DNA of 64,000 nt from Actinomyces slackii (GTDB lineage Bacteria > Actinomycetota > Actinomycetes > Actinomycetales > Actinomycetaceae), in the NCBI RefSeq assembly GCF_900637295.1, contig NZ_LR134363.1, positions 744,001 to 808,000 of the forward strand, read 5' to 3'. The translations under genes were made by a program, and so were the position numbers. Under the pieces are notes generated by a model, which did not search any database, was not told the DNA's origin, and saw only the letters and a list, made by a program, of their open reading frames with translations. Numbering within the stretch: position 1 is the first letter of the stretch; the number at the start of each line of letters is the position of its first letter. Of the stretch, positions 6,481-57,117 are shown one piece after another.

Positions 6481-7119
6481 TCAGTCGATGATGCCGTAGA
6501 GGCGGTCTCCGGCGTCGCCCAGACCCGGGACGATGTAGGCGTGCTCATTGAGGCGCTCATCCACCGCCGCGGTCACCACGGTGACATTCGCGCGCTCGCC
6601 GACGGCCTCCTCCAGGGTCTTGACGCCCTCGGGGGCCGCGATGAGGCACAGGGCGGTGACATCGCGGGCGCCGCGCTCCAGGAGGTAGTCGATGGCGGCC
6701 ACGAGGGTGTGGCCGGTGGCCAGCATGGGGTCGATGACGAAGCACTGGCGGCCTGAGAGGTCGTCGGGCAGGCGGTTGGCGTAGGTCTCCACCTCCAGGG
6801 TGTCCTCGTCGCGCTTCATGCCGAGGAAGCCGACCTCGGCCGTCGGCAGCAGGCGGGTCATGCCCTCTAGCATGCCCAGGCCCGCGCGCAGGATCGGCAC
6901 GACGATGGGCCGGGGCGAGGCGATGCGGCGGCACTGCGCCACGGCAACAGGGGTGGTGATCTCCACGGCCTCCGTTCGCACCTCGCGAGTGGCCTCGTAG
7001 GCCAGGAGGGTGACGAGCTCGTCAACGAGTTGGCGGAAGACCGCCGAGGGCGTCCTCTGGTCGCGCAGGACGGAGAGCTTGTGATCGATGAGGGGGTGAT
7101 CGGCAACGTGCAGGTGCAT
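6481..7119 (-). CDS. upp: Uracil phosphoribosyltransferase
   Basis: The 212-residue product matches the length and motifs of UPRTase, which converts uracil plus PRPP to UMP in pyrimidine salvage. Visible motifs are the N-terminal [16 protein letters not shown], the segment [15 protein letters not shown], the PRPP-binding loop [13 protein letters not shown], and the C-terminal [15 protein letters not shown] that forms the uracil pocket. The start is at ATG 7119. The gene is transcribed away from the RiPP operon, so the low-GC gap 7120-7427 must hold promoters for both. No obvious regulatory RNA was recognised upstream. Confidence 0.97.
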
Positions 7120-7344
7120 GGTGAAAGACTACGGCCCATCTGCGTGGCGAGTCGCGCAGGTCGTGGGGAGAGGCGCACGTGGGTGCGGGTGCTGATACCC
7201 GCCCACCGGTCAGAGCCGATGGTGGCTGGGACGTGGCGCAAGACGACAGCGAAAAGAGTAGCGCAACAATATAAGCGAAGGCTTCCATACTTCTTATAAA
7301 GTGGTAAAAGTCACGTATAGAAACGCTAAATTCGCGTGATCTGC

Positions 7345-7399
7345 TTGACACTCTGTGTGTATCCAATCACACTTATATGGCAGCTCAATGAACGAGCTG
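7345..7399 (+). promoter_or_regulatory. Low-GC promoter/leader region of the RiPP operon
   Basis: The stretch 7255-7400 is markedly AT-richer than its surroundings. It contains a consensus TTGACA at 7345-7350 and a TATAT element at 7374-7378; their spacing of about 22-23 nt is longer than ideal, so the true -10 is uncertain. GTGTG (7355-7359) and CACAC (7368-7372) form an inverted repeat between these boxes, a possible operator. A 6-bp hairpin CAGCTC/GAGCTG (7381-7399, loop 7 nt) lies just upstream of the ribosome site and could protect the mRNA 5' end. Confidence 0.45.
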
Positions 7400-7427
7400 T
7401 GTGATCCCTTAGGAAAGGAGGTGTGTG

Positions 7428-7580
7428 ATGACGCTGATGAGTGCGCTTGCTGACGCAGGCAAGGATGCTGGGACGCCGATGGTGCGCAGTGCTGGGTGCA
7501 TCGCTTGCTGGCGCTTCCGCAAGGTAGTTGCAGTGCGGCGAGCCTGTGGAAGGCCGAACCCGATCCTCCTGGCCCTGTGA
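7428..7580 (+). CDS. SkfA-like sactipeptide (sporulation-killing-factor type) precursor peptide
   Basis: The ORF encodes 50 residues from ATG 7428 to TGA 7580. Its ribosome site AAAGGAGGTG (7414-7423) is almost a perfect match to the 16S tail, 6 nt from the ATG, as expected for an abundantly made precursor. The segment GTPMVRSAGCIACW (residues 15-28), a third Cys at 40, and the end CGRPNPILLAL align with remembered B. subtilis SkfA (GTSIVKAAGCMGCW, third Cys, then a PxP motif, and a final hydrophobic residue). By analogy the leader is residues 1-23, cleavage falls at Gly23-Cys24, and the core is 27 residues with Cys at core positions 1, 4 and 17. SKF itself is a 26-residue head-to-tail cyclic peptide with one thioether and one disulfide. 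The radical SAM, protease and exporter genes follow directly. Confidence 0.88.
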   Translation: MTLMSALADAGKDAGTPMVRSAGCIACWRFRKVVAVRRACGRPNPILLAL

Positions 7581-7600
7581 CCTCCTGGCCGGGAGTTGGT

Positions 7601-7638
7601 GCCCCGGGGCGCGGGCCGGTGTGCTCGTGGCCCGGGGC
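7601..7638 (+). terminator. GC-rich hairpin between precursor and modifying enzyme (possible attenuator)
   Basis: GCCCCGGG (7601-7608) and CCCGGGGC (7631-7638) form an 8-bp perfect stem. An alternative inner stem CGGGCC (7612-7617) with GGCCCG (7629-7634) competes with it. There is no U-run, so partial termination or RNA processing is more likely than full termination. Such a hairpin would yield more precursor mRNA than enzyme mRNA. Confidence 0.5.
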
Positions 7639-7683
7639 CGAACCGGAAGGAGTGCTGGTGTCTGATCACAACGAAGGTTACCT

Positions 7684-8946
7684 ATGAAAATCGCAGAAAG
7701 AACTACCCTGGGTCGGGACTACGCTTCCCGGTGGGTGCTCCATTCTCAGCCGGACGGCATGATCCTCGTGGACAAGTCGAGTCTCTACTACGTGCGCCTC
7801 ACTCCGCTCGCGGCGGAGCTGATGCTTCAGTTCTCCAAGGGGCGAAGCCTGGATGATGTCGCAGCTGCAAGGGCGGTTCTCGAGAACGTCACCGTCGCAG
7901 AGGCCAGGGCCGCACTTGTCCAGCTGCTCTCCGGGGACCCGCTCACAGGGGAGTGGCTGAAGGGCGGCGTGGACTCCGAGATCCGGGTTACTGGGTCGGA
8001 GCAGTCCTACGTTCCTGTCACGATGTCGCTGCAGTTGACGAACGGCTGCAACCTCGAATGCTCCTTCTGCTATGCGGCTTCCGGAGCCAGGCGTGACAGC
8101 GAGTTGAGCGCCCAGGAGTGGATCGACGTCATCAAACGGGGGTCTTCCCTCGGGGTGCTGTCTTGTACATTGACTGGAGGGGAGCCCACTATGGCCAGGG
8201 GCTTCCATCATATCCTCACCGCCGCCGCAAGTTACTTCACCACTGTCTCTCTGTTCACTAACGGGTACGCGCTCTCCCGCAGGACAATCAGCCTTATCGC
8301 TGCACTGGGCAACGTCGACGTCCAGGTAAGCCTTGATGGGGTTGGGGAGACCCACAACACTATTCGAGGCGGACGGGACGCCTTTAATAAGACCCTAAAG
8401 ACGATCAGCGATCTCACCGCGCAGGGGGTGTCGGTTGATGCGGCGATGGTTGCCACGCCAAAAAACTACCGTCAGGTCGAGGACCTGGCGGCAGTTCTGG
8501 ATGATGCGGGCGCTTACCGGCTCCGTGTAGCGGAGATTCAGACCCTCGGCCGTGCGGCGGGCAGTGACGAGTTTAGGCTGGCAGAGGAAATGGCCGCCGC
8601 GGTGGAGGAGCAAATGGAGCGCTTTAGCGCCCGGGGACGCAATTTGGAGATCGTCCAGGGGACGGGGTGCGACCTCGGAGAGGAGGTTGAGGTTCTTACA
8701 GGACGGGAGTCGGAGTACCTTGTCCCGGGCTACCTCAGTTGGCACGTCCTAAGTGACGGGCGGGTGACACCGTGCACTCTTGAGGAGGTTGGTGCGATCG
8801 GTAACGTTCGAACCGATGCTCTGGAGCGGATCGGCTCACTGGACAACCTTGAGGCGGCGGCGCAGAAGTCGTTCGGGTGCCGGTGCATGAAGTACGTGTC
8901 GCGGCCCACCAGTTGTGGTCACCCGTACGCGGAGGCCGTCCGATGA
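7684..8946 (+). CDS. PqqD/radical SAM/SPASM peptide-modifying enzyme (SkfB-like thioether synthase)
   Basis: A 420-residue protein. Residues about 10-95 (ILVDKSSLYYVRLTPLAAEL onward) resemble a PqqD-type leader-recognition domain. The radical SAM CX3CX2C motif is Cys122, Cys126, Cys129 (NGCNLECSFCY), followed by TGGEP at 164-168. The C-terminal SPASM-like part has Cys364, Cys399, Cys401 and Cys411, able to hold an auxiliary Fe-S cluster. SkfB of B. subtilis, about 410 residues, has the same layout and makes the Cys alpha-thioether in SKF; by inference this enzyme does the same on the 50-residue peptide 104 nt upstream. GAAGG precedes ATG 7684. The gene overlaps the next one by ATGA. Its GC is lower than that of flanking housekeeping genes, consistent with transfer. 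Confidence 0.9.
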   Translation: MKIAERTTLGRDYASRWVLHSQPDGMILVDKSSLYYVRLTPLAAELMLQFSKGRSLDDVAAARAVLENVTVAEARAALVQLLSGDPLTGEWLKGGVDSEIRVTGSEQSYVPVTMSLQLTNGCNLECSFCYAASGARRDSELSAQEWIDVIKRGSSLGVLSCTLTGGEPTMARGFHHILTAAASYFTTVSLFTNGYALSRRTISLIAALGNVDVQVSLDGVGETHNTIRGGRDAFNKTLKTISDLTAQGVSVDAAMVATPKNYRQVEDLAAVLDDAGAYRLRVAEIQTLGRAAGSDEFRLAEEMAAAVEEQMERFSARGRNLEIVQGTGCDLGEEVEVLTGRESEYLVPGYLSWHVLSDGRVTPCTLEEVGAIGNVRTDALERIGSLDNLEAAAQKSFGCRCMKYVSRPTSCGHPYAEAVR

Positions 8947-10463
8947 CAGCCATGGCGCAGGCCCTTGTTACGCTTGCCGCAGTCCTTCTGCTCGCTCGGG
9001 TGTACCGCAGCCTTCGCCCGACAGGGCACCCGATAGCGGGAGATCCGGGGCTTTTGCAGAGGGAGGAGGCCATATCGCGCGCCCGCCAGTACGCCGACGT
9101 GCTTCTGGGAGTCAGTACGGGAGACTGGCACGCCTTCGCCACCACCTCCAGGGACGAGGAGGCGCTCGCCGCCGTTGAGTTGCTTCCCGGAGGGCCGACG
9201 GCGGAAGAGACCGAGTTTGTGAATCAGAGGGGGTATACGGGGGAGTGGTACGTCCGCCTCATTCCCGATCTTCGCCAGGAGTCCTCCGTCCTGATCGGTC
9301 TGGCAGCCGGTGGCCGGCTCAGCCTGTTTGAGGCTCGCGGAGAGTTGGGGCAGCCGAGGACCGATGCTCCGGAGCAAGATGCCTCTCCTGTGCTGGAGGC
9401 ATCGGTGATCGGATTGGGCACTGAGCCGGATGCCATCAGTTGGCAACGCGAGGAGAGGGATTCTGGCGGCCCGCGCGTCGCCCACTTCCGCCACACTGCC
9501 GGGCGCCTGGTGTCGGAGCATGTGACCCGCTTCAGCGCTGGGAGGCTCACCCGCGTTGACCGGCGGCTGGAGGTAACGAACCAGAGTGGAGCGGAGCAGC
9601 CGGTCCAGGATAGACAGGAGCTCGCCGGTGCTGGTGCGATGCTCATGACTGTACTGGCTGTGGGCGGTGGGATGGTGGTTCTCGTAGTTGGTCAGGGCCG
9701 TCCTGACTGGGAGGTGCCCTCGGCTCTGGCTGCTGCAACATTCTTGGCCAGCTTCCTAAACGGGATCCTCTATCCCTCCGGCATCGTTGCGGGTGCCCTG
9801 CCGCCCGGTGTGCGGGCTGGGGCCTACATAGTGCTGACCGTGATCACCAACGCGACTCTTGCGATTCTCAACGGAGTGGTCGTCTTCATTGTCTCCTGCG
9901 CGGCGCTGTCGGTGTCGCCCAACGCGACGCTGGGGCTGGCAGGTCCGGGGTTGGTGCTGCCTATCCTGTCAGGTACTGCTTTTGCCATGTTCTGGCTCGT
10001 GGTCTCTTCAGGACTGTACTCGTTTGTGTCCAGGAGGGCTGGTTGCCGGGTGTTCAGGAACCCGTCACGAAGTTATATATTCATGCTTCCCGGAGCCCGT
10101 GTCAACGGAGTTCTTAACGCATTGGTCAGTGCCCTGACGGAGGAGACCGTGTTCCGCCTGTTCGTCCTTTCTGGGACACAGGTGCTGTTAGCCCCTGTGC
10201 TACCGGAGCCGTGGGCCACGGTGGCAGCGGTGGCGGTCAGCGCCCTACTGTGGTCGCTGGCGCACTCGACCCAGGCGTGTCAGCCTTCGTACTACCGTTA
10301 TGTCGAGCTCTGGGTCGTGGGCGCGGGTCTCGGTGTGCTGTACGTTATTTTTGGCATACTGGCGCCACTGGTGGCGCACACGCTGTACAACGCTGTCGTC
10401 ATGCTCTCCCATGACGACCTTGTGCAGCCGAGAGAAGTACTCCAGGAAAGGAGAGTCCATTGA
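8943..10463 (+). CDS. CPBP-family intramembrane protease (SkfC-like leader peptidase/cyclase candidate)
   Basis: The product is 506 residues from ATG 8943, which overlaps the radical SAM stop as ATGA. One N-terminal helix (MTAMAQALVTLAAVLLLARV) precedes an outside beta-rich region of about 200 residues, then about eight membrane segments. The CPBP/CAAX-protease motifs are present: EETVFR (EExxxR), LLWSLAHS and HTLYNAVV. These supply the glutamates and histidines of the metal site. SkfC, similar in size and also CPBP-type, is the protease in the skf operon, proposed for leader removal and head-to-tail cyclisation. Here it is the only protease in the operon, so the same role is inferred. The large non-membrane N-terminal domain is unassigned and could hold the peptide. 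Confidence 0.85.
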   Translation: MTAMAQALVTLAAVLLLARVYRSLRPTGHPIAGDPGLLQREEAISRARQYADVLLGVSTGDWHAFATTSRDEEALAAVELLPGGPTAEETEFVNQRGYTGEWYVRLIPDLRQESSVLIGLAAGGRLSLFEARGELGQPRTDAPEQDASPVLEASVIGLGTEPDAISWQREERDSGGPRVAHFRHTAGRLVSEHVTRFSAGRLTRVDRRLEVTNQSGAEQPVQDRQELAGAGAMLMTVLAVGGGMVVLVVGQGRPDWEVPSALAAATFLASFLNGILYPSGIVAGALPPGVRAGAYIVLTVITNATLAILNGVVVFIVSCAALSVSPNATLGLAGPGLVLPILSGTAFAMFWLVVSSGLYSFVSRRAGCRVFRNPSRSYIFMLPGARVNGVLNALVSALTEETVFRLFVLSGTQVLLAPVLPEPWATVAAVAVSALLWSLAHSTQACQPSYYRYVELWVVGAGLGVLYVIFGILAPLVAHTLYNAVVMLSHDDLVQPREVLQERRVH

Positions 10464-12217
10464 ATCAGAGCCCTGGCAGGGAAGGAGGCCCGGACGCGGA
10501 CGGCCCGGCCTGGGCAGACTCTGCCCAGGACCTCGAGTCCGGACCGCGGCTTAGACAGCTGTGGCCCTTCCTTCGCCCCCTCAGGGCGAGGATCGTCCTG
10601 GGCATCGTCCTCGCCCTAGCAGGTGCGGTGGCGTCGTTGGCCCAGCCGATAGTGATGGCGCAGGTGATTAACGCGACGCTTCTGGAGGAGTCGGTGGCCC
10701 GACCTTTTGCGCTGCTGGCGCTCCTGCTGCTGCTTGACGTCGTCCTGTCCGGGCTGCAGGCCTGGGTGCTCCTACGGGCAGGGGAGGATCTCGTCCTCAC
10801 CGTGCGCACGCTGCTCATAGAGCGCATTATCTTCTGGCGCCTGCCGACCCTGAGGAGGCACCGCAGTGGGGACCTCATCTCGCGAGTCAGCAATGACGCG
10901 GGTACTCTGCGAGGTATTCTCAGTGATGGCACCGTTGACGTCGTGGGCTCCGTGTTCATGCTGGGGGGAGCAATCTGGATCATGATCGTCATCGATCCGG
11001 TCCTCTTCGGCTGTACCGTCGCGGCGCTTGTCCTCGCCGGAGCCAGCGCCGTGGCGCTTCTGCCGCAGATCTCACGGGAGACCGAGCGCTCTAACAAGGA
11101 GTTGGGGGTCCTCTCCGCTGACCTGGACCGCGCCGTCACCGGCTTCATCACGGTCATCACATCAGGAATGCGTTCTCTGGAGCGTGAGCGCCTGGCGGGT
11201 GATGCGCGGGCGAGTTGGCGGGCAGGCCGCAGGGCCGCCGCCTGGGACGCCCTGACGACCCCGATCCTGCTGCTTGGGATGAATCTCGGATTTCTCGTCG
11301 TCTTCGGTGTAGGAGGAGTCAGAGTCGCCGAGGGGCGCCTGGGTGTCGCCGAATTCATCTCCTTTATCCTGTACTTCGGTATCCTCACCCCTCCGATCAT
11401 CATGGGCATGACCGCTCTGACGACCGTCCAGCGCTGCCTGGGAGCGGTTGGGAGGATATCGGAAGTGCTGGACGAGCCTGTCGAGGATCCGGTGGATGGC
11501 CTTCTGGACCGCCACTACGTCCCCGACGAGGGCAGCCCCCCATTCTCGGCGGCGCTGTCCGATGTCACTTTCCGTTACTCCATGCGTGAGGCCCCTGTAC
11601 TTGACAGTCTCAGCCTGGAGCTGGAGACCGGCGGGCTTACCGCCCTGCTCGGTGAGTCCGGAAGCGGCAAGACCACCACGCTCTACCTTCTGGCAGGCCT
11701 GGAGCGCCCCGACTCCGGTGAGGTCCTCATCGACGGCGAGGCACTGACCGAGGAGCGCGCGGGAGATGTCCTCGACGGTGTCGCGGTGGTGCAGCAGGAG
11801 ACACCGGTCTTCTGGGGGACCGTGCGTGACAACCTGTGCTATGGGGTGTTTCCGGAGCCCTCAGTGGAGGAGGTTGACGAGGTCGTCGAGCGGCTCGGTC
11901 TCCGTCCGCTAGTGGACAGCCTGCCCGGGGGGCTGGACTCCCACATCGAGGACCATGGTGTCAGCCTCTCCGGCGGGGAGCGTCAACGGATCGCCATCGC
12001 GCGGGCCCTCCTGCGCAGGCCGCGCCTCCTGCTGCTCGATGAGCCCACCGCCCAGCTTGACGGGCACAACGAGAGGCGGTTGCTGGAGGCTCTACGCACT
12101 CTGAGGGGGCGTACGACCGTGATGCTGAGCACCCACCGCTCATCCACCGCGGCCGGTGCGGACAAGGTGGTCCAGGTCTCACCCGCCGGGACTCCCGTAT
12201 GCCAGTCAGCCGAGTGA
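10460..12217 (+). CDS. ABC exporter, fused TMD-ATPase (peptide export/self-protection)
   Basis: A 585-residue half-transporter. A type IV exporter membrane domain (about residues 30-320, six hydrophobic segments) is followed by an ATPase with Walker A GESGSGKTTT, signature VSLSGGERQRIAIARA and Walker B LLLLDEPTAQLD. No C39 peptidase domain is present, so it does not cut leaders itself. The start is TTG 10460, overlapping the CPBP stop as TTGA, with AAGGAG at 10448-10453 exactly 6 nt upstream. It probably exports the mature cyclic peptide and may give immunity, as SkfE/SkfF do in B. subtilis. In that operon, however, ATPase and permease are separate proteins of a different exporter class. It is the last gene of the operon; no thioredoxin-like SkfH homologue follows. 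Confidence 0.9.
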   Translation: MNQSPGREGGPDADGPAWADSAQDLESGPRLRQLWPFLRPLRARIVLGIVLALAGAVASLAQPIVMAQVINATLLEESVARPFALLALLLLLDVVLSGLQAWVLLRAGEDLVLTVRTLLIERIIFWRLPTLRRHRSGDLISRVSNDAGTLRGILSDGTVDVVGSVFMLGGAIWIMIVIDPVLFGCTVAALVLAGASAVALLPQISRETERSNKELGVLSADLDRAVTGFITVITSGMRSLERERLAGDARASWRAGRRAAAWDALTTPILLLGMNLGFLVVFGVGGVRVAEGRLGVAEFISFILYFGILTPPIIMGMTALTTVQRCLGAVGRISEVLDEPVEDPVDGLLDRHYVPDEGSPPFSAALSDVTFRYSMREAPVLDSLSLELETGGLTALLGESGSGKTTTLYLLAGLERPDSGEVLIDGEALTEERAGDVLDGVAVVQQETPVFWGTVRDNLCYGVFPEPSVEEVDEVVERLGLRPLVDSLPGGLDSHIEDHGVSLSGGERQRIAIARALLRRPRLLLLDEPTAQLDGHNERRLLEALRTLRGRTTVMLSTHRSSTAAGADKVVQVSPAGTPVCQSAE

Positions 12218-12304
12218 GGCGCACGGGGGCCCGACGGGTCCCACAGACCTGACTCCTGCCGTTTTAGCCTCGGGTTTTCGTTGTTGGGGTGGTGGGGGTA
12301 GGGG

Positions 12305-12376
12305 TGAAGGTGCCCCTTTTCCTGGGATAATGCGGGTTGTCGAAGCTCGCGATGATCCTGGAGAGGGGCACCTTCA
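12305..12376. repeat. Inverted repeat with 13-bp perfect arms, possible IS remnant
   Basis: TGAAGGTGCCCCT (12305-12317) is repeated inverted as AGGGGCACCTTCA (12364-12376). Imperfect pairing extends inward. The gap 12218-12502 around it has no convincing gene. A short frame starting at the right arm (MVKATAGLYPRAGA) could be the start of a lost transposase. Downstream of the RiPP operon, this may be an insertion scar or a terminator. I do not recognise a specific IS family. Confidence 0.45.
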
Positions 12377-12502
12377 TGGTGAAGGCTACAGCAGGCTTGT
12401 ATCCACGGGCGGGGGCCCGGGCTGGTGGAGTGCTGGGTGTAGCCGAGTGGCGAGACGCGTCAAAGTTGTTCATGACGGACACTTTTGGGGGCGCCGAGGT
12501 GG

Positions 12503-13177
12503 TCAGGCGGTGGCGCGCAGCCAGGCCAGCACGGCGCGAACCCGGCGGTTGTCCTGGCCGGGAGGCAGATCCAGCTTGAGGAAGATATTGGCCACGTGCT
12601 TGGCCACCGCGCCCTCGGAGACCACGAGGCGCTCCACGATCTGGGCGTTGGTCAGACCCTCGGCCATGAGGGCGAGCACCTCGCGCTCCCGCTCGGTCAG
12701 GCGCGCTATTCCTGGATGCGCGGCGTCCGTGGTGCGGCCTCCTGCCAGGAGTCGGGCCACCACCTCGGGGTCGACCACCACGCCGCCGCCCACAACGACC
12801 TCCAGGGAGTGCATGAAGTCGGCAACCCGCCCCACGCGCTCCTTGAGCAGGTAGCCCACCGCGCCCGCATCGTCCTCCAGCAGGTCGCGCACATAGGGGC
12901 CGGCCACATAGGCGGAGAGCACCATGACCGGCAGGCCCGGGTGGGAGCGGCGCAGCTCTAGAGCGGCCCGCAGGCCGTCATCTGTACCGCCCGGGGGCAT
13001 GCGCACATCGGTGACGACAGCATCGGGCAGGGCGGCCTGCTCGGCCAGGCTGGTCACGGCTGAGCGCAGCTCATCGGCATCCGCGGCCTGGGCCACCACC
13101 TCGTGCCCCGCCGCGCTCAGCAATCCGGCCAGGCCCTCGCGCACGAGAGCGGCATCGTCGGCCAGCACGATCCTCAT
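12503..13177 (-). CDS. NarL/LuxR-type response regulator
   Basis: A 224-residue two-domain regulator. The receiver starts MRIVLADDAALVREGLAGLL with the acidic pair, a phospho-acceptor Asp in AVVTDVRMPPGG, and Lys in GYLLKERV. The output domain is LuxR-type: RLTEREREVLALMAEGLTN followed by VSEGAVAKHVANIFLKL. I chose ATG 13177 because the receiver begins exactly there; the longer frame to 13324 only reads through an intergenic repeat. It pairs with the histidine kinase at 13425-14876, transcribed in the same direction just upstream. Two copies of the TGCACATTCAT repeat separate the two genes. Target genes are unknown; the neighbouring M28 peptidase and ABC pair are candidates. Confidence 0.93.
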   Translation of the reverse strand: MRIVLADDAALVREGLAGLLSAAGHEVVAQAADADELRSAVTSLAEQAALPDAVVTDVRMPPGGTDDGLRAALELRRSHPGLPVMVLSAYVAGPYVRDLLEDDAGAVGYLLKERVGRVADFMHSLEVVVGGGVVVDPEVVARLLAGGRTTDAAHPGIARLTEREREVLALMAEGLTNAQIVERLVVSEGAVAKHVANIFLKLDLPPGQDNRRVRAVLAWLRATA

Positions 13178-13206
13178 GGGGCGATCCTGGCACCAGCCAG
13201 CGGCTG

Positions 13207-13300
13207 TTGCACATTCATTCCGCGGGGGCGCCGCGACGATCGCTGCTATTCCAAGGAACCTGCCGATCATGGCGGGCGCTGGAGGGTGATGAATGTGCAA
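13207..13300. repeat. TGCACATTCAT intergenic repeat, copy A
   Basis: The left end TTGCACATTCAT (13207-13218) and right end ATGAATGTGCAA (13289-13300) are exact inverted repeats of 12 bp. The interior holds a weaker dyad (GATCG ... CGATC). It lies between the kinase and regulator genes. Confidence 0.8.
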
Positions 13301-13312
13301 GGAGGGGTGTCG

Positions 13313-13405
13313 TTGCACATTCATCGCCGGGCGAGGCCCCTACAACTCAGAGGTGAACCGCGTCATTCCGCCGATCGCTGCCGCGAGCAGAGAAGCTAAA
13401 TGTGC
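13313..13405. repeat. TGCACATTCAT intergenic repeat, copy B (right arm degenerate)
   Basis: TTGCACATTCATC begins at 13313, only 12 bp after copy A. The right arm is decayed to AAATGTGC (13398-13405). Tandem placement with copy A suggests either local duplication or a preferred landing site. Confidence 0.65.
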
Positions 13406-13424
13406 GGTGCGGCGCTCGCCCGGC

Positions 13425-14876
13425 TCACCATGGCGGCGATGCCGGGGCCTGGATGAGCAGGGTGGTGCCCTCGCCCGGGGCCGAGTCCAGATGCATGCTG
13501 CCGCCGACGGTCTCCAATCGCTGGGCGATCCCCGCCAGGCCTGTTCCCCCACCCGTCGCCTCGGGGATCGCCCCGCCGACGCCCTTGTCCTCGATGCGGG
13601 CGGATACCCCCGTGGCGCCGCAGAGCAGGTGGACGTGGGCGCTGCTTGCCCCCGAGTGGCGGGCGGCATTGGTCAGCCCCTCACTGATGGCGAAGTAGAC
13701 GGCCGTGGACACCGGATCGCTCAGGCCGGAGTCATCCCTGGAGGCCGTCAGGGCAACCTCGATGCCCGCGCCCGCGCACAGCTCGCGCACCCCGGCGATG
13801 AGACCGCGCTCGGTCAGGACCGCAGGGCGCACCGAGCGCACGGTGTTGCGCAGCTCGGCCAGCGCGGCCTCCGCCTGCTCCTGGGCGCGGTCGAGCTGGG
13901 AGATGAGCCGGTCCCGAGCGGTGGTCTCCGGTGTGCTGGCGGGGTCGACGGAGCCGGCAGAGCCAGCGGGGCTGGCAAGGCCGGCAGAGCCGGCAGGGTC
14001 GGTAGGGCCGGCAGAGTTGGCAGAATCGGCCGGCCCAGCGGGGCTGGTTGGGCCGACGGTGCTGGTAGGCCCGGCGGAGTTGGCCGGCCCGGCGGAGTTG
14101 GCAGAGCCGGCGGGGCCAGCCGGGCCAGCAGACTCCGGCAGGGACTCGGCGCTCAGCCGCGCGGCTCCCAGGGTCATGGTCAGTGCGGTCAGGCGCTGCT
14201 GGGCGCCATCGTGCAGGTCGCGCTCAATGCGGATGCGCTCGGCCTCGAATGCGTCCACGAGGGTGGCCCTGCCGCGGCGCAGGTCCCCGACCTGCTGGGC
14301 CAGGGCGGCCCACTCGGCGTCCTGATCCCGGCTCAGAGCAGCGATCAGCCGCAGACGCGCAGTGGCGACGACAGCGAGGACCAGCACCGTGAAGAGGCAG
14401 AATCCCACCCCCAGGGGAGGAGCCCACCAGGAGTCTCCCGGCGAGTGCAGGCTCCTGAGGCCGCGCAGGATGAAGCGGAGCCCCAGGACGCCGATGACGC
14501 CCGCCCCGAAGCTGGGGCCGGACATGAGCAGGGAGGAGATCACCAGGGGCAGGTCCTGCCTCCAGAAGGGTCGCTTGGTCACGCGGGAGGCCAGCCAGAT
14601 CGGGAGCGGCGTGCCGGGCCTGCATCCCGAGGGCGCCTCGGCGCCCAGGAGGCGGGCCGTGAGCCGATCAGCCTCCGCCGCCAGTGGGATCGTCAGGGGA
14701 AGGGCGAGGGAGCTCAGGCCCAGGAGGATGGCTGAGGGGATGAGGAGAGCGGCCCGGGCCGCCTCGAGGAGCACCAGGATGACAAGGCGCATTCGCCAGG
14801 AGGCCATGAGGCGCTCCCACACGCGCCGCGCCACCTCCCGCGGTGGCATGGCGGATTGCTGCATGGACTCGGGCAT
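13425..14876 (-). CDS. Sensor histidine kinase, NarL/HisKA_3 type, with low-complexity insert
   Basis: The product has 483 residues. The N-terminal half has about four membrane segments in two pairs (for example LVILVLLEAARAALLIPSAI and LFTVLVLAVVATA). The HisKA_3 box IERDLHDGAQQRL places the phospho-acceptor at His222. The ATPase part has the N box SEGLTNAARHSG, then IEDKGVG, and GGGTGLAGIAQRLETVGG. Between the two helices of the dimerisation domain, residues about 249-318 are replaced by a degenerate Ala/Gly/Pro/Ser/Asn repeat. This is unusual because this is normally a short turn. The kinase is the upstream partner of the response regulator at 12503-13177. The signal sensed is unknown. Confidence 0.92.
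   Translation of the reverse strand: MPESMQQSAMPPREVARRVWERLMASWRMRLVILVLLEAARAALLIPSAILLGLSSLALPLTIPLAAEADRLTARLLGAEAPSGCRPGTPLPIWLASRVTKRPFWRQDLPLVISSLLMSGPSFGAGVIGVLGLRFILRGLRSLHSPGDSWWAPPLGVGFCLFTVLVLAVVATARLRLIAALSRDQDAEWAALAQQVGDLRRGRATLVDAFEAERIRIERDLHDGAQQRLTALTMTLGAARLSAESLPESAGPAGPAGSANSAGPANSAGPTSTVGPTSPAGPADSANSAGPTDPAGSAGLASPAGSAGSVDPASTPETTARDRLISQLDRAQEQAEAALAELRNTVRSVRPAVLTERGLIAGVRELCAGAGIEVALTASRDDSGLSDPVSTAVYFAISEGLTNAARHSGASSAHVHLLCGATGVSARIEDKGVGGAIPEATGGGTGLAGIAQRLETVGGSMHLDSAPGEGTTLLIQAPASPPW
13923..14132 (-). repeat. In-gene degenerate tandem repeat encoding (A/N)SAGP-type residues
   Basis: The coding stretch for kinase residues about 249-318 consists of short GC-rich units around GGCCGGCAGAG and GGCGGAGTTGGC. 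They encode repeated AGP, ANSAGP and TSTVGP. The unit length is imperfect (12-15 nt). It keeps the reading frame. Confidence 0.7.
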
Positions 14877-52762: not shown

Positions 52763-53362
52763 TCACAGATCGCTGAGTAGCGCTTCGAGAACGGCCGGAG
52801 ATGCCCATCCATTGATTTCGAGAGTGCCCGTCGGTGAAACGTGGATTTCCAGTCGGTCGGGTATTGCTGGAAGTTGTGCGACAAGATCGACGTATCGCGG
52901 GGTCAGCGCATGAAAACGCTGATTGGTTGAACCTACCCAGGGTCTGACTGTGTCCAGCCGCTGAGCATCGAAAGGGCCGTCCACGAGAAGGTCGGTGTGG
53001 GAGAGAAGTGCACGAACGCTAGCATCATTAGATGCCTCAAGATCCTCCCGCAAAAATCCTGTGAAGGTCATGACGCTCATGTCTCGGTCGCGAACTTCCT
53101 TAGCTAACGCGGCAAGTGGCTCTGCCTGCTCGAAAGGTTCTCCTCCGAGTAGTGTGATTCCCTCGATGCTGCTCGGCAAGCGGTCTAGTATATCTGATAC
53201 CTGAGTTGGAGTGCCCCCATGGTGTCCCCAAAGATCTGGGTTGAAACAACCTGCGCAGCGGATGCTGCAGCCCTGGACCCAAATCGCAGTTCTCCAGCCT
53301 GGTCCTTCGGCGGCCGTTTGCTCAATAAGCCGCGCCAGTGCGATAGTAGCACCCTCACCCAT
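52763..53362 (-). CDS. NrdG-like radical SAM protein (4Fe-4S single-cluster type)
   Basis: The 199-residue protein has CX3CX2C at Cys32, Cys36 and Cys39 (VQGCSIRCAGCFNPDLW), and GITLLGGEPFEQAEPLAAL as the SAM-binding GGEP motif. It resembles activases of anaerobic ribonucleotide reductase and pyruvate formate-lyase, but no such target enzyme is encoded nearby. Its GC is lower than the surroundings. It starts at ATG 53362 with GGAGG 8 nt upstream and is the last gene of the four-gene unit 52763-56612. Activation or modification of a partner in that unit is inferred. Confidence 0.87.
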   Translation of the reverse strand: MGEGATIALARLIEQTAAEGPGWRTAIWVQGCSIRCAGCFNPDLWGHHGGTPTQVSDILDRLPSSIEGITLLGGEPFEQAEPLAALAKEVRDRDMSVMTFTGFLREDLEASNDASVRALLSHTDLLVDGPFDAQRLDTVRPWVGSTNQRFHALTPRYVDLVAQLPAIPDRLEIHVSPTGTLEINGWASPAVLEALLSDL

Positions 53363-53379
53363 GTGTAAACGCCTCCGAT

Positions 53380-54297
53380 CTATAGGTCGAGCAAGCGCCC
53401 GGTCGAAGTGGGGGGTTTTGAGGTGTTCGGGGCAAGCGGGCTGAAGGACACTCGCTCGGTCAGCGCAATCAACTGATGTGGCTGGAGAGAAGAGGTGACA
53501 ACTAGATGATCCAGGTCTGTGAATCCACCACAGTCTTGTCGCGCACGAAGAATCCGATCGACTGCGGCCGCGTCTAACGATGGCAGTCCCATCAACTGAT
53601 CACGAGTGGCGGTGTTGACATCAATGGGTGCGAAACCACCATGTGGTGCATGGCTGTGACTAACATTCGATGGCTGTGCTGAAAAAGATCCTGGTGCAGA
53701 TGAGGGTGTAGGTTGTACAGACTGTACTGGTGCCCAACGGGACGATGCTGGCTGTGGGGGAAAGTGGTGAAAGTTTGCCGGAGAAGCTGACGTGCCTGGT
53801 TGGGATGTCGGGACTAGCCGTGCGGTAGAATACTGGGGATAACCAGGAGCGCATACTCGAGGTGGAGTCGCCTGGACCTGAGTGATTGTTGCATAGCCTT
53901 GATGGGATGGTATTGAGCCATTCACTAATAACCTCAGCCTTTCCTCTCGCGCGGCTACGGCTCGCAAGACACTGCGACGTAGGAATAGTGCGTGAATAGT
54001 GCCGACAATCCAGACAAGCAGAATGAGCACCGAGCCGAAGGCGCCTTTGGATAGGCGATCGAGTGTCGGATTACTCTCGGCTCCTCCGAAAGTAATCCAC
54101 ATGACAACACTGGCTGCGATCCACAACGATGCGATGATCCACATGCGTCGCGTCCCCACCTTGCTTCCTGCCCAGAGCCATCCGGCGAAAGCAAATAAAC
54201 CTAGACTACCTGCAATGACCAGAATCCAAGCCGAGTGACCAAGGCGCCAGATCAGAGGACGACGAGAGATGGCAGCGTCAATTCTGTCGGGTTGCAA
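53380..54297 (-). CDS. Membrane protein with C-terminal helix-hairpin-helix (ComEA-like) domain
   Basis: The 305-residue protein has three hydrophobic segments (AWILVIAGSLGLFAFAGWLW, MWIIASLWIAASVVMWITFG and GSVLILLVWIVGTIHALFL), then a Ser/Pro/Gln-rich linker of about 100 residues. Its C-terminal domain APIDVNTATRDQLMGLPSLD with VDRILRARQDCGGFTDLDHL is the HHH fold seen in ComEA-type DNA-binding proteins. The TTG start at 54297 is strongly supported by AGGAG (54305-54309) 7 nt upstream and overlaps the previous gene by 20 nt. The longer frame from 54378 would overlap by 101 nt. The HHH may bind DNA or protein; the function is unknown. Confidence 0.78.
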   Translation of the reverse strand: MQPDRIDAAISRRPLIWRLGHSAWILVIAGSLGLFAFAGWLWAGSKVGTRRMWIIASLWIAASVVMWITFGGAESNPTLDRLSKGAFGSVLILLVWIVGTIHALFLRRSVLRAVAAREERLRLLVNGSIPSHQGYATITQVQATPPRVCAPGYPQYSTARLVPTSQPGTSASPANFHHFPPQPASSRWAPVQSVQPTPSSAPGSFSAQPSNVSHSHAPHGGFAPIDVNTATRDQLMGLPSLDAAAVDRILRARQDCGGFTDLDHLVVTSSLQPHQLIALTERVSFSPLAPNTSKPPTSTGRLLDL

Positions 54298-54937
54298 CAG
54301 TGTTCTCCTGGGTGATGTTCTGAAGTTGCGCGGCGTAGGCGGAAGTGAATGAGCTCTCGGTAGCGTGTCCGTCAACAAGCTTCTCTAACACTGGGATCTG
54401 CGACAGACATGAATGACCAGTGAAGCCGACAGTCTCGGCACGGACTTCCCCTCGGCTGTCTACCGACATGTCGACTCGACGGTCATCAGTCAGGACGAGA
54501 GTGACATGTTGCTCATGGCCGCGAGTTTGCTCCTCGACGCGCATGCCGAGTTCAGGCGCACGCGCACGCAGTTTACGTAACACAGAGTCTTGAACCTGTA
54601 GCCCATATGCGTGGTCGAGATCAGCGATAAACGACTGCGCTTCATCGAGTGCCCAGCCTTCAGCAAAGCGCGCGACCCACACACCTGAAGAGTTGTCGCG
54701 GGCCAGAATAGCCGACCTGTGCCTTGTGGAGACTCTCAGATTGTTCGAGGTCTCCCAGTGACAGTTGAGGCCAAGGCTCCGAAGAGCTCCAGCCAATAGC
54801 GCAGGATCGCTCATACGTGTTTGAACGTACATCTGAGAGGGATCCTGAGCAGCTGGACGGGCCTTACCTTCACTAATGGCCTTACCTGCGGCAAATAGAG
54901 CGGCGGCGAGAGGGACGATGGTGACTGTCAGACTCAT
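54278..54937 (-). CDS. DUF1257 (Ycf35-like) plus DUF2997-like fusion protein
   Basis: The 219-residue product has an N-terminal hydrophobic stretch (VTIVPLAAALFAAGKAI), then a Ycf35-like part (SDPALLAGALRSLGLNCHWE and FAEGWALDEAQSFIADLDHA). The C-terminal VTLVLTDDRRVDMSVDSRGE with GFTGHSCLSQIPVLEKLVDG resembles the small DUF2997 proteins, whose hallmark is a GxSC motif. In cyanobacteria and other bacteria these two usually occur as neighbouring genes; here they look fused. The gene starts 7 bp after the AAA+ gene. The family assignment is from memory of the motif order and is moderately sure. The biochemical role of Ycf35 is unknown. Confidence 0.65.
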   Translation of the reverse strand: MSLTVTIVPLAAALFAAGKAISEGKARPAAQDPSQMYVQTRMSDPALLAGALRSLGLNCHWETSNNLRVSTRHRSAILARDNSSGVWVARFAEGWALDEAQSFIADLDHAYGLQVQDSVLRKLRARAPELGMRVEEQTRGHEQHVTLVLTDDRRVDMSVDSRGEVRAETVGFTGHSCLSQIPVLEKLVDGHATESSFTSAYAAQLQNITQENTVATRQN

Positions 54938-54944
54938 GATGTTT

Positions 54945-56612
54945 TTAGAACTCCACGTGTCGACCTGCTGAGCCGGTCATTGTTGATGGGAAGTCGGGCG
55001 GCGGGGGTGCCTGACTGGATGATGTCATGGGTGGCACGGTACCTGTGCGCGCCGGCGCAGTTCTTAGATCGTTGGACGCGGAGACCGCTCGCGGCCGAGC
55101 CCAGGCTCGCACCGCATCCAGTTGTTCGGCTTGCGTGACACTAAGCGGCACGGTCCGTTCGACCGCATTGAGGAGATCTTGTCCGACAAGGGGGCGCCTC
55201 TCGCTGAAAGCATCAAACAGTGCATCGTTAATGGCTTGCTCAATCTCCGCTCCTGAGAAACCTTGGGATTCTTGGATGAGGCGGTTGAGAAGTGCTCTGC
55301 TCGGGTTGAAAGAAGCGTGACGGGGAGCAGTAAGAACGTGCTTAGAGATATGCAGATGCCAGATGTCGGCACGCTCCTTCGCGGATGGCAGATCGACGAA
55401 AAAGATTTCGTCAAATCGGCCTTTGCGGAGCAGTTCCGGGGGAAGTGCTTCGACATTGTTCGATGTTGCGATAACGAATACGTTTGACCGTTTCTCCTGC
55501 ATCCAGGTGAGGAACGAGCCGAAGACTCGAGTTGAGGTTCCGGAGTCAGCCGCGCCGTTGATCCCTGCAAATCCCTTCTCAATCTCATCGACCCACAAAA
55601 CTGCCGGGGCTGCGCTCTCAGCTGAGCGAATGGCGCTGCGCAGGTTGGACTCTGAAGACCCGACTAGGCCCGAGAACAGTTTGCCGATGTCGAGTCTGAG
55701 CAGAGGCAGTTGCCACGTGGAGGCAACAGCCTTGGCGGTCAACGACTTTCCACATCCGGGTACTCCTGTGATGAGAACACCACGGGGCGCCTTGATTCCG
55801 TACTGCTTCGCCTCGGTGAGCCAGGAATTACTGCGTCGATCCAGCCAGCGCTTGAGGTTCTCCAGCCCACCGACCTGGTTTAAATCGCCTTCGGAGTCGA
55901 CGTACTCCAGTAGACCGCCTTTACGTACAGCCTGCTTCTTCTCCTTGAGGACGATCTCGATGTCGGAGGCGTCGAGCCTGCCGTCTTCGGCCATGGCATA
56001 GGCGAGCGCGCCTTCTGTCTCCGTGGTCGTGAGACCAACGGCAGCTCCGACCAGGCGGTCCTTGTCCTCTTCGCTCAAATCAACCTGCAGACCGGAGGCC
56101 GCGTTGTCTCGGATTAGGGTATCCAAGATGAGACGAATGTCGTTCTTCGCGGGAAGAGGAAAATCCATCAAGTGGATTTCTTTCTCAAGGTCAGATGGAA
56201 TGCACAAGGATGGCGCGATGAGGATGAGTGTGCGTCGAAGACTGCCGTTCTTGAATACTGCGGCGACCTCGCGGAGACGTCGCACGACGTTGGGAGGTGC
56301 CGGAATGGAGTTTGTTCCCAGATGCGCATGAAGGTCCAGGAAGACGAAGGTGGCGGCTTCGTTGAATCGACACGCGGCATCCAATGCATGCATGGGGTCT
56401 GTTGTTCCTGTCACGGTGCGACCGTCGGGCCCAACCAGACCAGTGCTGCAACTCCATGTGTGGACTGGCCGAGGGGATGGGAGGCGGCCTCCCGGCCCAA
56501 GCGTGGCGTGAATGCTGGCAAGCGCCCGCTGTTCCTCGTAGGTCTCGATATAGAGGATGGGGAATCGCGCTTTAGCGAGAATCGTCAACGAGTCCTCGAA
56601 GGTATGCGACAT
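54945..56612 (-). CDS. Ycf46-type AAA+ ATPase
   Basis: The 555-residue protein has an N-terminal Ycf46-like domain ([20 protein letters not shown], then [12 protein letters not shown]) and an AAA+ module: Walker [41 protein letters not shown], Walker [17 protein letters not shown], sensor 1 [20 protein letters not shown] and the arginine finger in [14 protein letters not shown] Pro/Ser-rich tail ends the protein. It starts at ATG 56612 with AGGAAG upstream. It heads a lower-GC operon with a Ycf35/DUF2997 fusion, an HHH membrane protein and a radical SAM protein. A role as remodeller or chaperone for its operon partners is inferred. Confidence 0.88.
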
Positions 56613-57117
56613 AGGGAATCTTCCTTGAGGGGGGAGGTTGTGTCAGAGGATATTTATATGGGATATGGATGCTGTTGCTATGGGAGTCGATTAGCTGAAT
56701 TGTGGGGTCTCAACTATGTGCTAAGAGATGTGGTGTAACTTTCTTGATGGTCTTGGAGTATTAGTGCATTGAAAATGGACAGTTGCTGTTGATCTCTATT
56801 GATTGTCGTCCTGGCACTGCGTTGTGCGTTCTAGTGGATGGCGGGTGGTTGATAAATCCCTATGGCGGTGAGAAAGTTGGGAATCGGCGCGCGCTGAGAA
56901 CGTGATTCGCTCCAAGACCTTTCTGCGTGAGATCAGTGGTGACTGACTGGTCGAGACGCCATCGCGGGTGAAACGCTCCCGCACCAAGGGGAGCTCCCCG
57001 TCGTCGATCGCCAGCGTCAACCTCATGCGGATATCTTGCCATCGCTTCTTGCGGTTGTCACCGACCAGGTGTCGTCCCAGCCCCAGCGCGTCCTGCGTCA
57101 GTCGTACACTCCTGCAT
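56613..57117. other. AT-rich intergenic region upstream of the Ycf46 operon, no clear gene
   Basis: The first 250 bp are the most AT-rich DNA of this end of the window. On the minus strand TATAAAT (near 56655) and TTGAGA (near 56710) are possible promoter elements of the AAA+ gene. Beyond 56870 the GC rises. A minus frame reading GDNRKKRWQDIRMRLTLAID looks like a gene remnant I cannot identify. A 26-residue plus frame (56658-56738) is discussed under rejected items. Confidence 0.4.

Follow-up and report, generated by a model that had tools for sequence, protein, structure and literature searches.

A probable sporulation killing factor-type sactipeptide cluster in Actinomyces slackii

Is the sporulation killing factor (SKF) tied to sporulation? 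In sporulating Bacillus, SKF is regarded as a cannibalism toxin, and the question is raised by a block of four genes in the actinobacterium Actinomyces slackii (assembly GCF_900637295.1, contig NZ_LR134363.1). The block lies in a stretch of 64,000 nucleotides, hereafter the window (positions 744001-808000 of the single-contig 3.22 Mb genome), where an earlier annotation, the sequence-only reading, had seen an SKF-like operon with a related product. We consider it highly probable that the block is an SKF-family sactipeptide cluster gained horizontally, and that its product is a cationic 27-residue cyclic sactipeptide. The homologies of precursor, enzyme and protease back the earlier claim; the exporter departs from SkfEF more than it had implied. 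Since an SKF-type set is found in an actinobacterium without a Spo0A over the cut-off, this family of peptides is probably independent of sporulation.

The precursor peptide and gene order

The 50-residue precursor open reading frame (ORF) is preceded by a ribosome site, AAGGAGGTG. The enzyme and CPBP genes are joined by an ATGA overlap and the CPBP and exporter genes by a TTGA overlap, and all four genes were found where the sequence-only reading had placed them. The order precursor, maturase, protease and transporter, on one strand with overlapping genes, is that of all four skf loci that were read together with their downstream genes. The enzyme and the protease belong with SkfB and SkfC, and the precursor comes close to the SkfA family without reaching its threshold: against TIGR04404 (SkfA, NCBIfam) it scored 43.3 bits (E 2.7e-11), narrowly missing the curated 45. 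With the precursor below the NCBI model cut-off, the enzyme may be named in routine annotation while the peptide is overlooked.

To assess this match we have trained a hidden Markov model (HMM) on 12 foreign precursors only. In the six-frame translation of the window, with 1285 peptides, it gave the 50-residue ORF 36.4 bits (E 2.3e-10), the runner-up having an E of 0.32. No score exceeded 8.0 bits in 2955 control peptides from 156,518 bases, which were drawn from 17 stretches of genomes of the same genus and from one stretch of the own genome beyond the window. Because a model of foreign precursors picks this peptide alone from the window, with the controls at 8.0 bits or less, the match is not due to chance. 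By blastp the precursor also matched three Bacillus-type loci (E 1e-9 to 5e-8).

A CxxCW precursor was present in each of the 12 other skf loci, all distinct, so that the conservation expected of the precursor in related operons is borne out. All five precursors in alignment A2 share a Gly, a Val, AGCxxCW, a Lys, the third Cys and the penultimate Ala. The SkfA pattern named by the sequence-only reading thus largely holds; the PxP motif is missing from the precursor of the Anoxybacillus plasmid. The precursor is predicted to split into a 23-residue leader and a 27-residue core, CIACWRFRKVVAVRRACGRPNPILLAL, which has six Arg/Lys and no acidic residues; SKF has three Arg/Lys.

The radical SAM enzyme

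Against TIGR04403 (SkfB equivalog, NCBIfam) the enzyme scored 304.6 bits, a narrow pass of the cut-off of 300. It matched 91 families in all, and among the 24 others listed none reaches its cut-off; the next best gave 108.6 bits, StsB 92.9 of the 625 needed and AlbA 79.5 of 850. The best solved relative was SkfB itself (6efn, E 6.6e-70), with residues 18-405 aligned, which span the RRE, radical SAM and Twitch parts of SkfB; PqqE followed at E 1.9e-13. These two distances, to the next family and to the next structure, rule out an ordinary PqqE-like or other maturase. The sequence-only reading had described a PqqD/radical SAM/SPASM enzyme. The radical SAM part stands, and is of the SkfB type. 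However, PqqD had no match in Pfam even at E 1, SPASM scored 20.2 against a cut-off of 21.5, and the outer parts would be better named after the RRE and Twitch domain of SkfB.

In each of two trees a branch separates the enzyme and eight SkfB rows from the remaining rows, with support of 83/80 (22 rows) and 82/94 (14 rows). Together with the equivalog score this agrees with the placement beside SkfB proposed earlier, at moderate support. Of the 15 SkfB rows other than the window, the larger tree holds 8, each of a different genome, and it omits L003 (146 residues), L028 (a 25-residue ORF) and L005 (a duplicate of the G025 row); the smaller is the same tree minus eight rows, the longer ones. 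According to passages of PMC6231123, functions differ within the SPASM/Twitch group and are not predicted by sequence networks, and on this ground the enzyme could form a different bond, such as a ranthipeptide-type side-chain thioether or a C-C bond. We regard this as very unlikely, given that SkfB is the best match by far (304.6 bits against 108.6 for the next family) and that the window precursor shares the donor-cysteine context of SkfA.

A further glimpse at the enzyme is provided by its cysteines, compared across 16 SkfB rows from 13 distinct genomes or records, window included (three pairs, L030/L040, L038/L041 and L037/L042, each come from a single genome). In the window enzyme the radical SAM CxxxCxxC consists of C122, C126 and C129, and the Twitch cysteines are C364, C399 and C401. 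The three radical SAM cysteines and the equivalents of SkfB Cys351, Cys385 and Cys387 are present in 16 of 16 rows (13 distinct). In the SkfB crystal, as described in part of PMC6231123, the latter three hold the [2Fe-2S] auxiliary cluster, and Cys333, the expected fourth ligand, nevertheless lies about 12 Å from it. The equivalent of Cys333 is Leu346 in the window enzyme, the sole row without this cysteine (kept in 15/16 rows, 12/13 distinct). The equivalent of Cys380 is Gln394; this cysteine is kept in 14/16 rows (11/13 distinct) and is also gone in Anoxybacillus. Because of its distance from the cluster in the crystal, Cys333 is probably not essential. Judging from the alignment, Cys329 and Cys411 of the window enzyme, in stretches that the other rows do not have, might be candidate substitute ligands. 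This diverged SkfB therefore bears on a question of enzymology, namely whether a fourth cysteine is needed for the auxiliary cluster; a three-cysteine cluster in this maturase, if true, would test in nature the open-site interpretation of the SkfB crystal.

The protease and the exporter

In all four loci compared, blastp matched the CPBP protein to the ORF in the SkfC position (22-23% identity, E 2.9e-17 to 1.4e-22) with most of its length covered, and identity to the SkfC homologues in alignment A3 is 21-24%. It carries the CPBP motifs (EExxxR at 400-405, H441 and HxxxN at 479-483), and E400, E401, R405, H441, H479 and N483 are invariant in all five rows of A3. By alignment, then, it is a near full-length SkfC homologue with the catalytic residues. 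The low identity to SkfC (21-24%), and the fact that ring closure is argued by analogy, would also suit a protein that only trims the leader, leaving a crosslinked, linear thioether peptide not joined head to tail. We think this unlikely, as the CPBP protein matches SkfC beyond the protease domain and the core keeps the layout of SKF, with AGC at the cleavage site, the third Cys and a hydrophobic final residue.

The exporter is a different case. Its nucleotide-binding domain is 28-31% identical to the ORF in the SkfE position, a level usual for ABC ATPases, and Walker A, signature and Walker B motifs are present; no match to the ORF in the SkfF position was found at E 0.01 in any of the four loci. 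It is a one-piece ABC protein in the place of SkfE plus SkfF. The operon has no room for SkfG and SkfH, with 285 bp, partly an insertion-sequence-like repeat, from the exporter to the next conserved gene (the rest of the genome was not searched for them). As far as sequence tells, the locus would work like SKF, and the whole system is a variant, because the SkfE plus SkfF transporter and the SkfGH features were looked for and are lacking here. Passages of PMC13343845 describe skfEF as the self-protection transporter of SKF and SKF as undetectable in a skfEF mutant; for both reasons the replacement exporter is likely, by analogy, to be essential here as well.

Origin and distribution of the block

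Homology of the flanks to relatives ends at 7119-7134 and restarts at 12491-12507, delimiting a block of about 5.3 kb between upp and a response-regulator gene. The corresponding gap measures 62-1180 bp in 9 of 13 fetched same-genus stretches, a set (from 48 other genomes of the genus) partly picked for closeness of upp and regulator, so that 9/13 is not a random sample. Two others have gaps of 2.7 kb (L126) and 3.7 kb (L123) without a match to the operon, and in the last two the regulator lies outside the fetched stretch. In three genomes (G005, G027 and G032) the protein that best matches the flanking regulator is encoded at a distance from upp (L080-L082); a further regulator copy adjoins upp in G005 and G032 (L117, L125), and the upp locus of G027 is not among the fetched stretches. 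As a separate observation, the interval between upp and the regulator has other content in some relatives (L123, L126) and may repeatedly take up DNA. The upp protein has a relative in 86 plasmid records, of which the top three are actinobacterial (67-68% identity), followed by a Firmicute at 53%; this agrees with an actinobacterial host.

The G+C content of the block is 0.635, compared with 0.704 in the left flank and 0.711 in the right, and at third positions 0.70-0.79 in the four operon genes versus 0.85-0.92 in six flanking genes. The repeat at the right edge is 81% alike to a sequence elsewhere in the genome (G000:C1:2842049-2842208) that overlaps DDE_Tnp_1_4 transposase ORFs; the window ORF at this repeat (12337-12579) had no Pfam match of its own. 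The junctions seen in relatives, the lower G+C and the insertion-sequence-like repeat together indicate that the operon was gained horizontally. A recent transfer from the Bacillaceae SkfB compared is excluded by enzyme identities of 33-37%.

No counterpart was identified in relatives. The SkfB model exceeded its cut-off in 1 of 49 genomes of the genus, 1 of 213 of the family and 1 of 396 sampled from the phylum, each time the own genome, and a profile of alignment A1 (E 1e-60) found the own genome only among 396 sampled from the order. The four-gene order that the sequence-only reading expected in relatives was accordingly absent from these samples. An enzyme in another Actinomyces genome (G025) is not a second copy in the genus, since it scores 166 bits, under the SkfB cut-off, and belongs to a different locus. 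SkfB was present in 1 of 398 genomes sampled from the class of the Paenibacillus genome G609, and in 11 of 80 from the family of that match.

Carriage of the window version by phages or plasmids was considered and dropped, as no close match occurs among the records listed. Enzyme matches occurred in 25 phage records, with 22-29% identity among the 10 listed, and in 428 plasmid records, where among the 15 listed only the Anoxybacillus skf locus is SkfB-like (35%; the rest 28% or less). Plasmid searches with the protease (no match) and with the precursor (30 records, best E 0.7) are insensitive, as both also missed the Anoxybacillus skf locus in that collection. Viral contigs gave a single 23-residue match to the enzyme, and a degenerate precursor pattern hit nine viral stretches, none of which had a tblastn match (E 0.001) to the four window proteins, 16 SkfB or 12 SkfA. 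An enzyme scan of genome contigs returned 19 loci (best E 2e-12, 28% identity); it also missed Bacillus skfB and is thus insensitive.

Presence in a single actinobacterial genome among the samples searched, and the insertion-sequence-like repeat at the block edge, could also be those of a decaying transferred remnant that makes nothing. However, all four frames are open and the catalytic motifs are intact; if the donor was low in G+C, the third-position values have shifted towards the host, which suggests long residence without loss. A remnant is in our view most unlikely.

The predicted product

SKF, as characterised in passages of PMC8172795, has a Cys4-Met12 thioether, a Cys1-Cys16 disulfide and a head-to-tail ring, and its enzyme SkfB is strict for Cys4 and tolerant of hydrophobic acceptors. 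By homology to SKF, Cys4-Val13 and Cys1-Cys17 bonds would be formed in the window core. We infer the following route. The RRE of the SkfB-like enzyme would bind the precursor leader, and the radical SAM cluster would remove the alpha-hydrogen of the acceptor (core Val13 by alignment), so that the thioether to Cys4 could form. The SkfC-like membrane protease would then cut off the leader, probably after Ser-Ala-Gly, and join the ends of the core into a 27-residue ring, with the disulfide Cys1-Cys17 within it. The one-piece ABC exporter would secrete the product and protect the producer. The product itself would be a cationic bacteriocin, probably active on membranes and directed at neighbouring bacteria, and its production would be under some control other than that by Spo0A. 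With ring, thioether and disulfide, its calculated monoisotopic mass is 3058.688 Da.

Several results weigh against an SKF-type cyclic sactipeptide. The product chemistry is a prediction from sequence. The precursor narrowly misses the SkfA cut-off and the enzyme only narrowly passes that of SkfB; on the SkfB side of the trees support is moderate, not firm, and the outgroup branches are long. The exporter meets no NCBIfam cut-off among the 25 families listed of 199, and none of the other actinobacterial genomes searched (genus, family, order and phylum samples) has a counterpart. In the Anoxybacillus locus the window precursor has no blastp match at E 0.01, and tblastn with it misses that skf plasmid. 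Finally, the segment from Cys4 to the third Cys is one residue longer in the window core than in SKF, where Met12 occupies the place of Val13, so that the ring size may differ.

A wider proposal is that SKF has been rewired outside the spore-formers: a precursor-maturase-protease module would have moved into a non-sporulating actinobacterium, an unrelated exporter replacing export and SkfEF self-protection, SkfG and SkfH being lost, a new control (possibly a leader RNA switch pairing with the ribosome site of the precursor) being acquired, and the auxiliary Fe-S cluster of the maturase being held by three protein cysteines. We hold this scenario tentatively, at a little under an even chance. 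If the copy works, it would show that the chemistry of the toxin can be moved to other organisms and does not depend on sporulation, and the product would be a new antimicrobial, cyclic and cationic, from a group that has been mined little.

Control of expression

The operon is not controlled by Spo0A: none was over the cut-off in the genome, the best match reaching 64.3 bits of 200 and covering profile positions 2-124. The leader contains a 15-nucleotide direct repeat, AACGAGCTGTGTGAT at 7391-7405 and AAGGAGGTGTGTGAT at 7415-7429 (87% alike), whose second copy spans the ribosome site and start codon of the precursor; ATCACAC at 7366-7372 is able to pair with either copy. Two-copy repeats such as this often arise by chance. 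A leader fold hiding the ribosome site had a z of -2.38 (3 of 200 shuffles fold as well), the three stretches folded giving -2.38, -1.96 and -0.36. Repeat and pairing are suggestive only, of a possible operator or RNA switch. The hairpin behind the precursor gene (z -1.96, 5 of 200 shuffles as good) is likewise suggestive only, possibly of an attenuator or processing signal, perhaps setting the precursor-to-enzyme ratio. A promoter and terminator scan of 7100-7720 found none, and Rfam gave no match in the window at gathering scores.

A two-component system adjoins the block at 12503-14876. Control by this system was rejected, because in 11 of the 13 fetched relatives without the operon its regulator lies no more than 4 kb from upp and hence belongs to the backbone. 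The same neighbour, and the general knowledge that small modified peptides often signal, could suggest that the product is mainly a signal peptide acting on the producer's own population and not a toxin. The backbone position of the regulator tells against this, as do the strongly cationic core and the view, given in passages of PMC13343845, that SKF lyses neighbouring cells; we rate a signalling role as quite unlikely.

Table 1. Features of the block, with window positions, strand and basis.
Feature	Position	Strand	Basis
SkfA-like precursor gene, 50 aa	7428-7577	+	TIGR04404 match, alignment A2, HMM of foreign precursors
SkfB-like radical SAM sactisynthase gene, 420 aa	7684-8946	+	TIGR04403, 6efn, cysteine map
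SkfC-like CPBP membrane protease gene, 506 aa	8943-10463	+	PF02517, blastp, alignment A3
One-piece ABC exporter gene, 585 aa	10460-12217	+	PF00664 (ABC_membrane), PF00005 (ABC_tran)
Inserted block between upp (UPRT) and response-regulator gene	7132-12490		Flank homology break, G+C
5' leader with 15-nucleotide direct repeat	7366-7430	+	Repeat search and folding
G+C-rich hairpin between precursor and enzyme genes	7601-7638	+	Folding
Probable insertion-sequence end remnant, right edge of block	12262-12427		Repeat elsewhere in genome

Relation to known systems

With skfABCEFGH of B. subtilis the window shares homologous precursor, maturase and CPBP protease genes in the same order, the core Cys pattern and the catalytic residues. 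It differs in having a one-piece ABC exporter instead of SkfE plus SkfF, no SkfG or SkfH in the operon, no Spo0A over the cut-off in the genome, no equivalents of Cys333 and Cys380 in the enzyme, and a core one residue longer with twice the Arg/Lys. The locus on plasmid pDSM15939_1 of Anoxybacillus amylolyticus (NZ_CP015439.1) has the same skfA-skfB-CPBP order and also no Cys380 equivalent, whereas it keeps Cys333, an ABC ATPase and SkfF, and its core is without PxP.

The G025 locus (L043) also has a radical SAM enzyme beside a CPBP protease gene; there the enzyme has the 166 bits mentioned above, and protease and ABC ATPase form a single protein. The locus yielded no SkfA-like precursor, the best L043 control peptide scoring 7.1 bits. 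This sactipeptide-like locus (L043:5601-10092) encodes a 441-residue radical SAM enzyme that carries more cysteines towards its C-terminus than SkfB does, and an 805-residue CPBP-ABC ATPase fusion; a short Cys-containing ORF behind GAGGAGGTG was read there by eye.

In the open-access literature searched, as far as the portions available go, no description of an actinobacterial skfA-skfB operon was found, nor is an actinobacterial skf operon mentioned in the available portions of PMC6284299, PMC4289311, PMC7794033, PMC7738495, PMC10456417, PMC6469967 and PMC7143919. The Rathayibacter tunB lead was set aside, since 'MoaA/NifB/PqqE/SkfB family' is in that passage a superfamily name only (PMC7143919). 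Passages of PMC9415966 liken a Crossiella CPBP (Rce1-like) protein to SkfC and state that known sactipeptides come from Firmicutes; two Actinomyces bowdenii genomes have a BAGEL4 sactipeptide call with which antiSMASH disagrees (PMC11381294, in part); and Actinomyces is among the genera with sactipeptide or bottromycin clusters without a core peptide (PMC11153084, in part). These predictions are actinobacterial too, and SkfA and SkfB are not named in those passages. According to part of PMC8549736, mining of Actinomyces for clusters of ribosomally synthesized and post-translationally modified peptides gave two core peptides like known ones, neither of them SKF, and a sactipeptide mining rule quoted in PMC13289728 includes TIGR04404.

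Elsewhere in the window, a second island of low G+C (0.55-0.58) spans 53001-57000. It encodes a DUF2997 protein, an HHH_3 protein and an IetA-like AAA ATPase (95 bits in PADLOC), and may be a set of defence or mobile genes.

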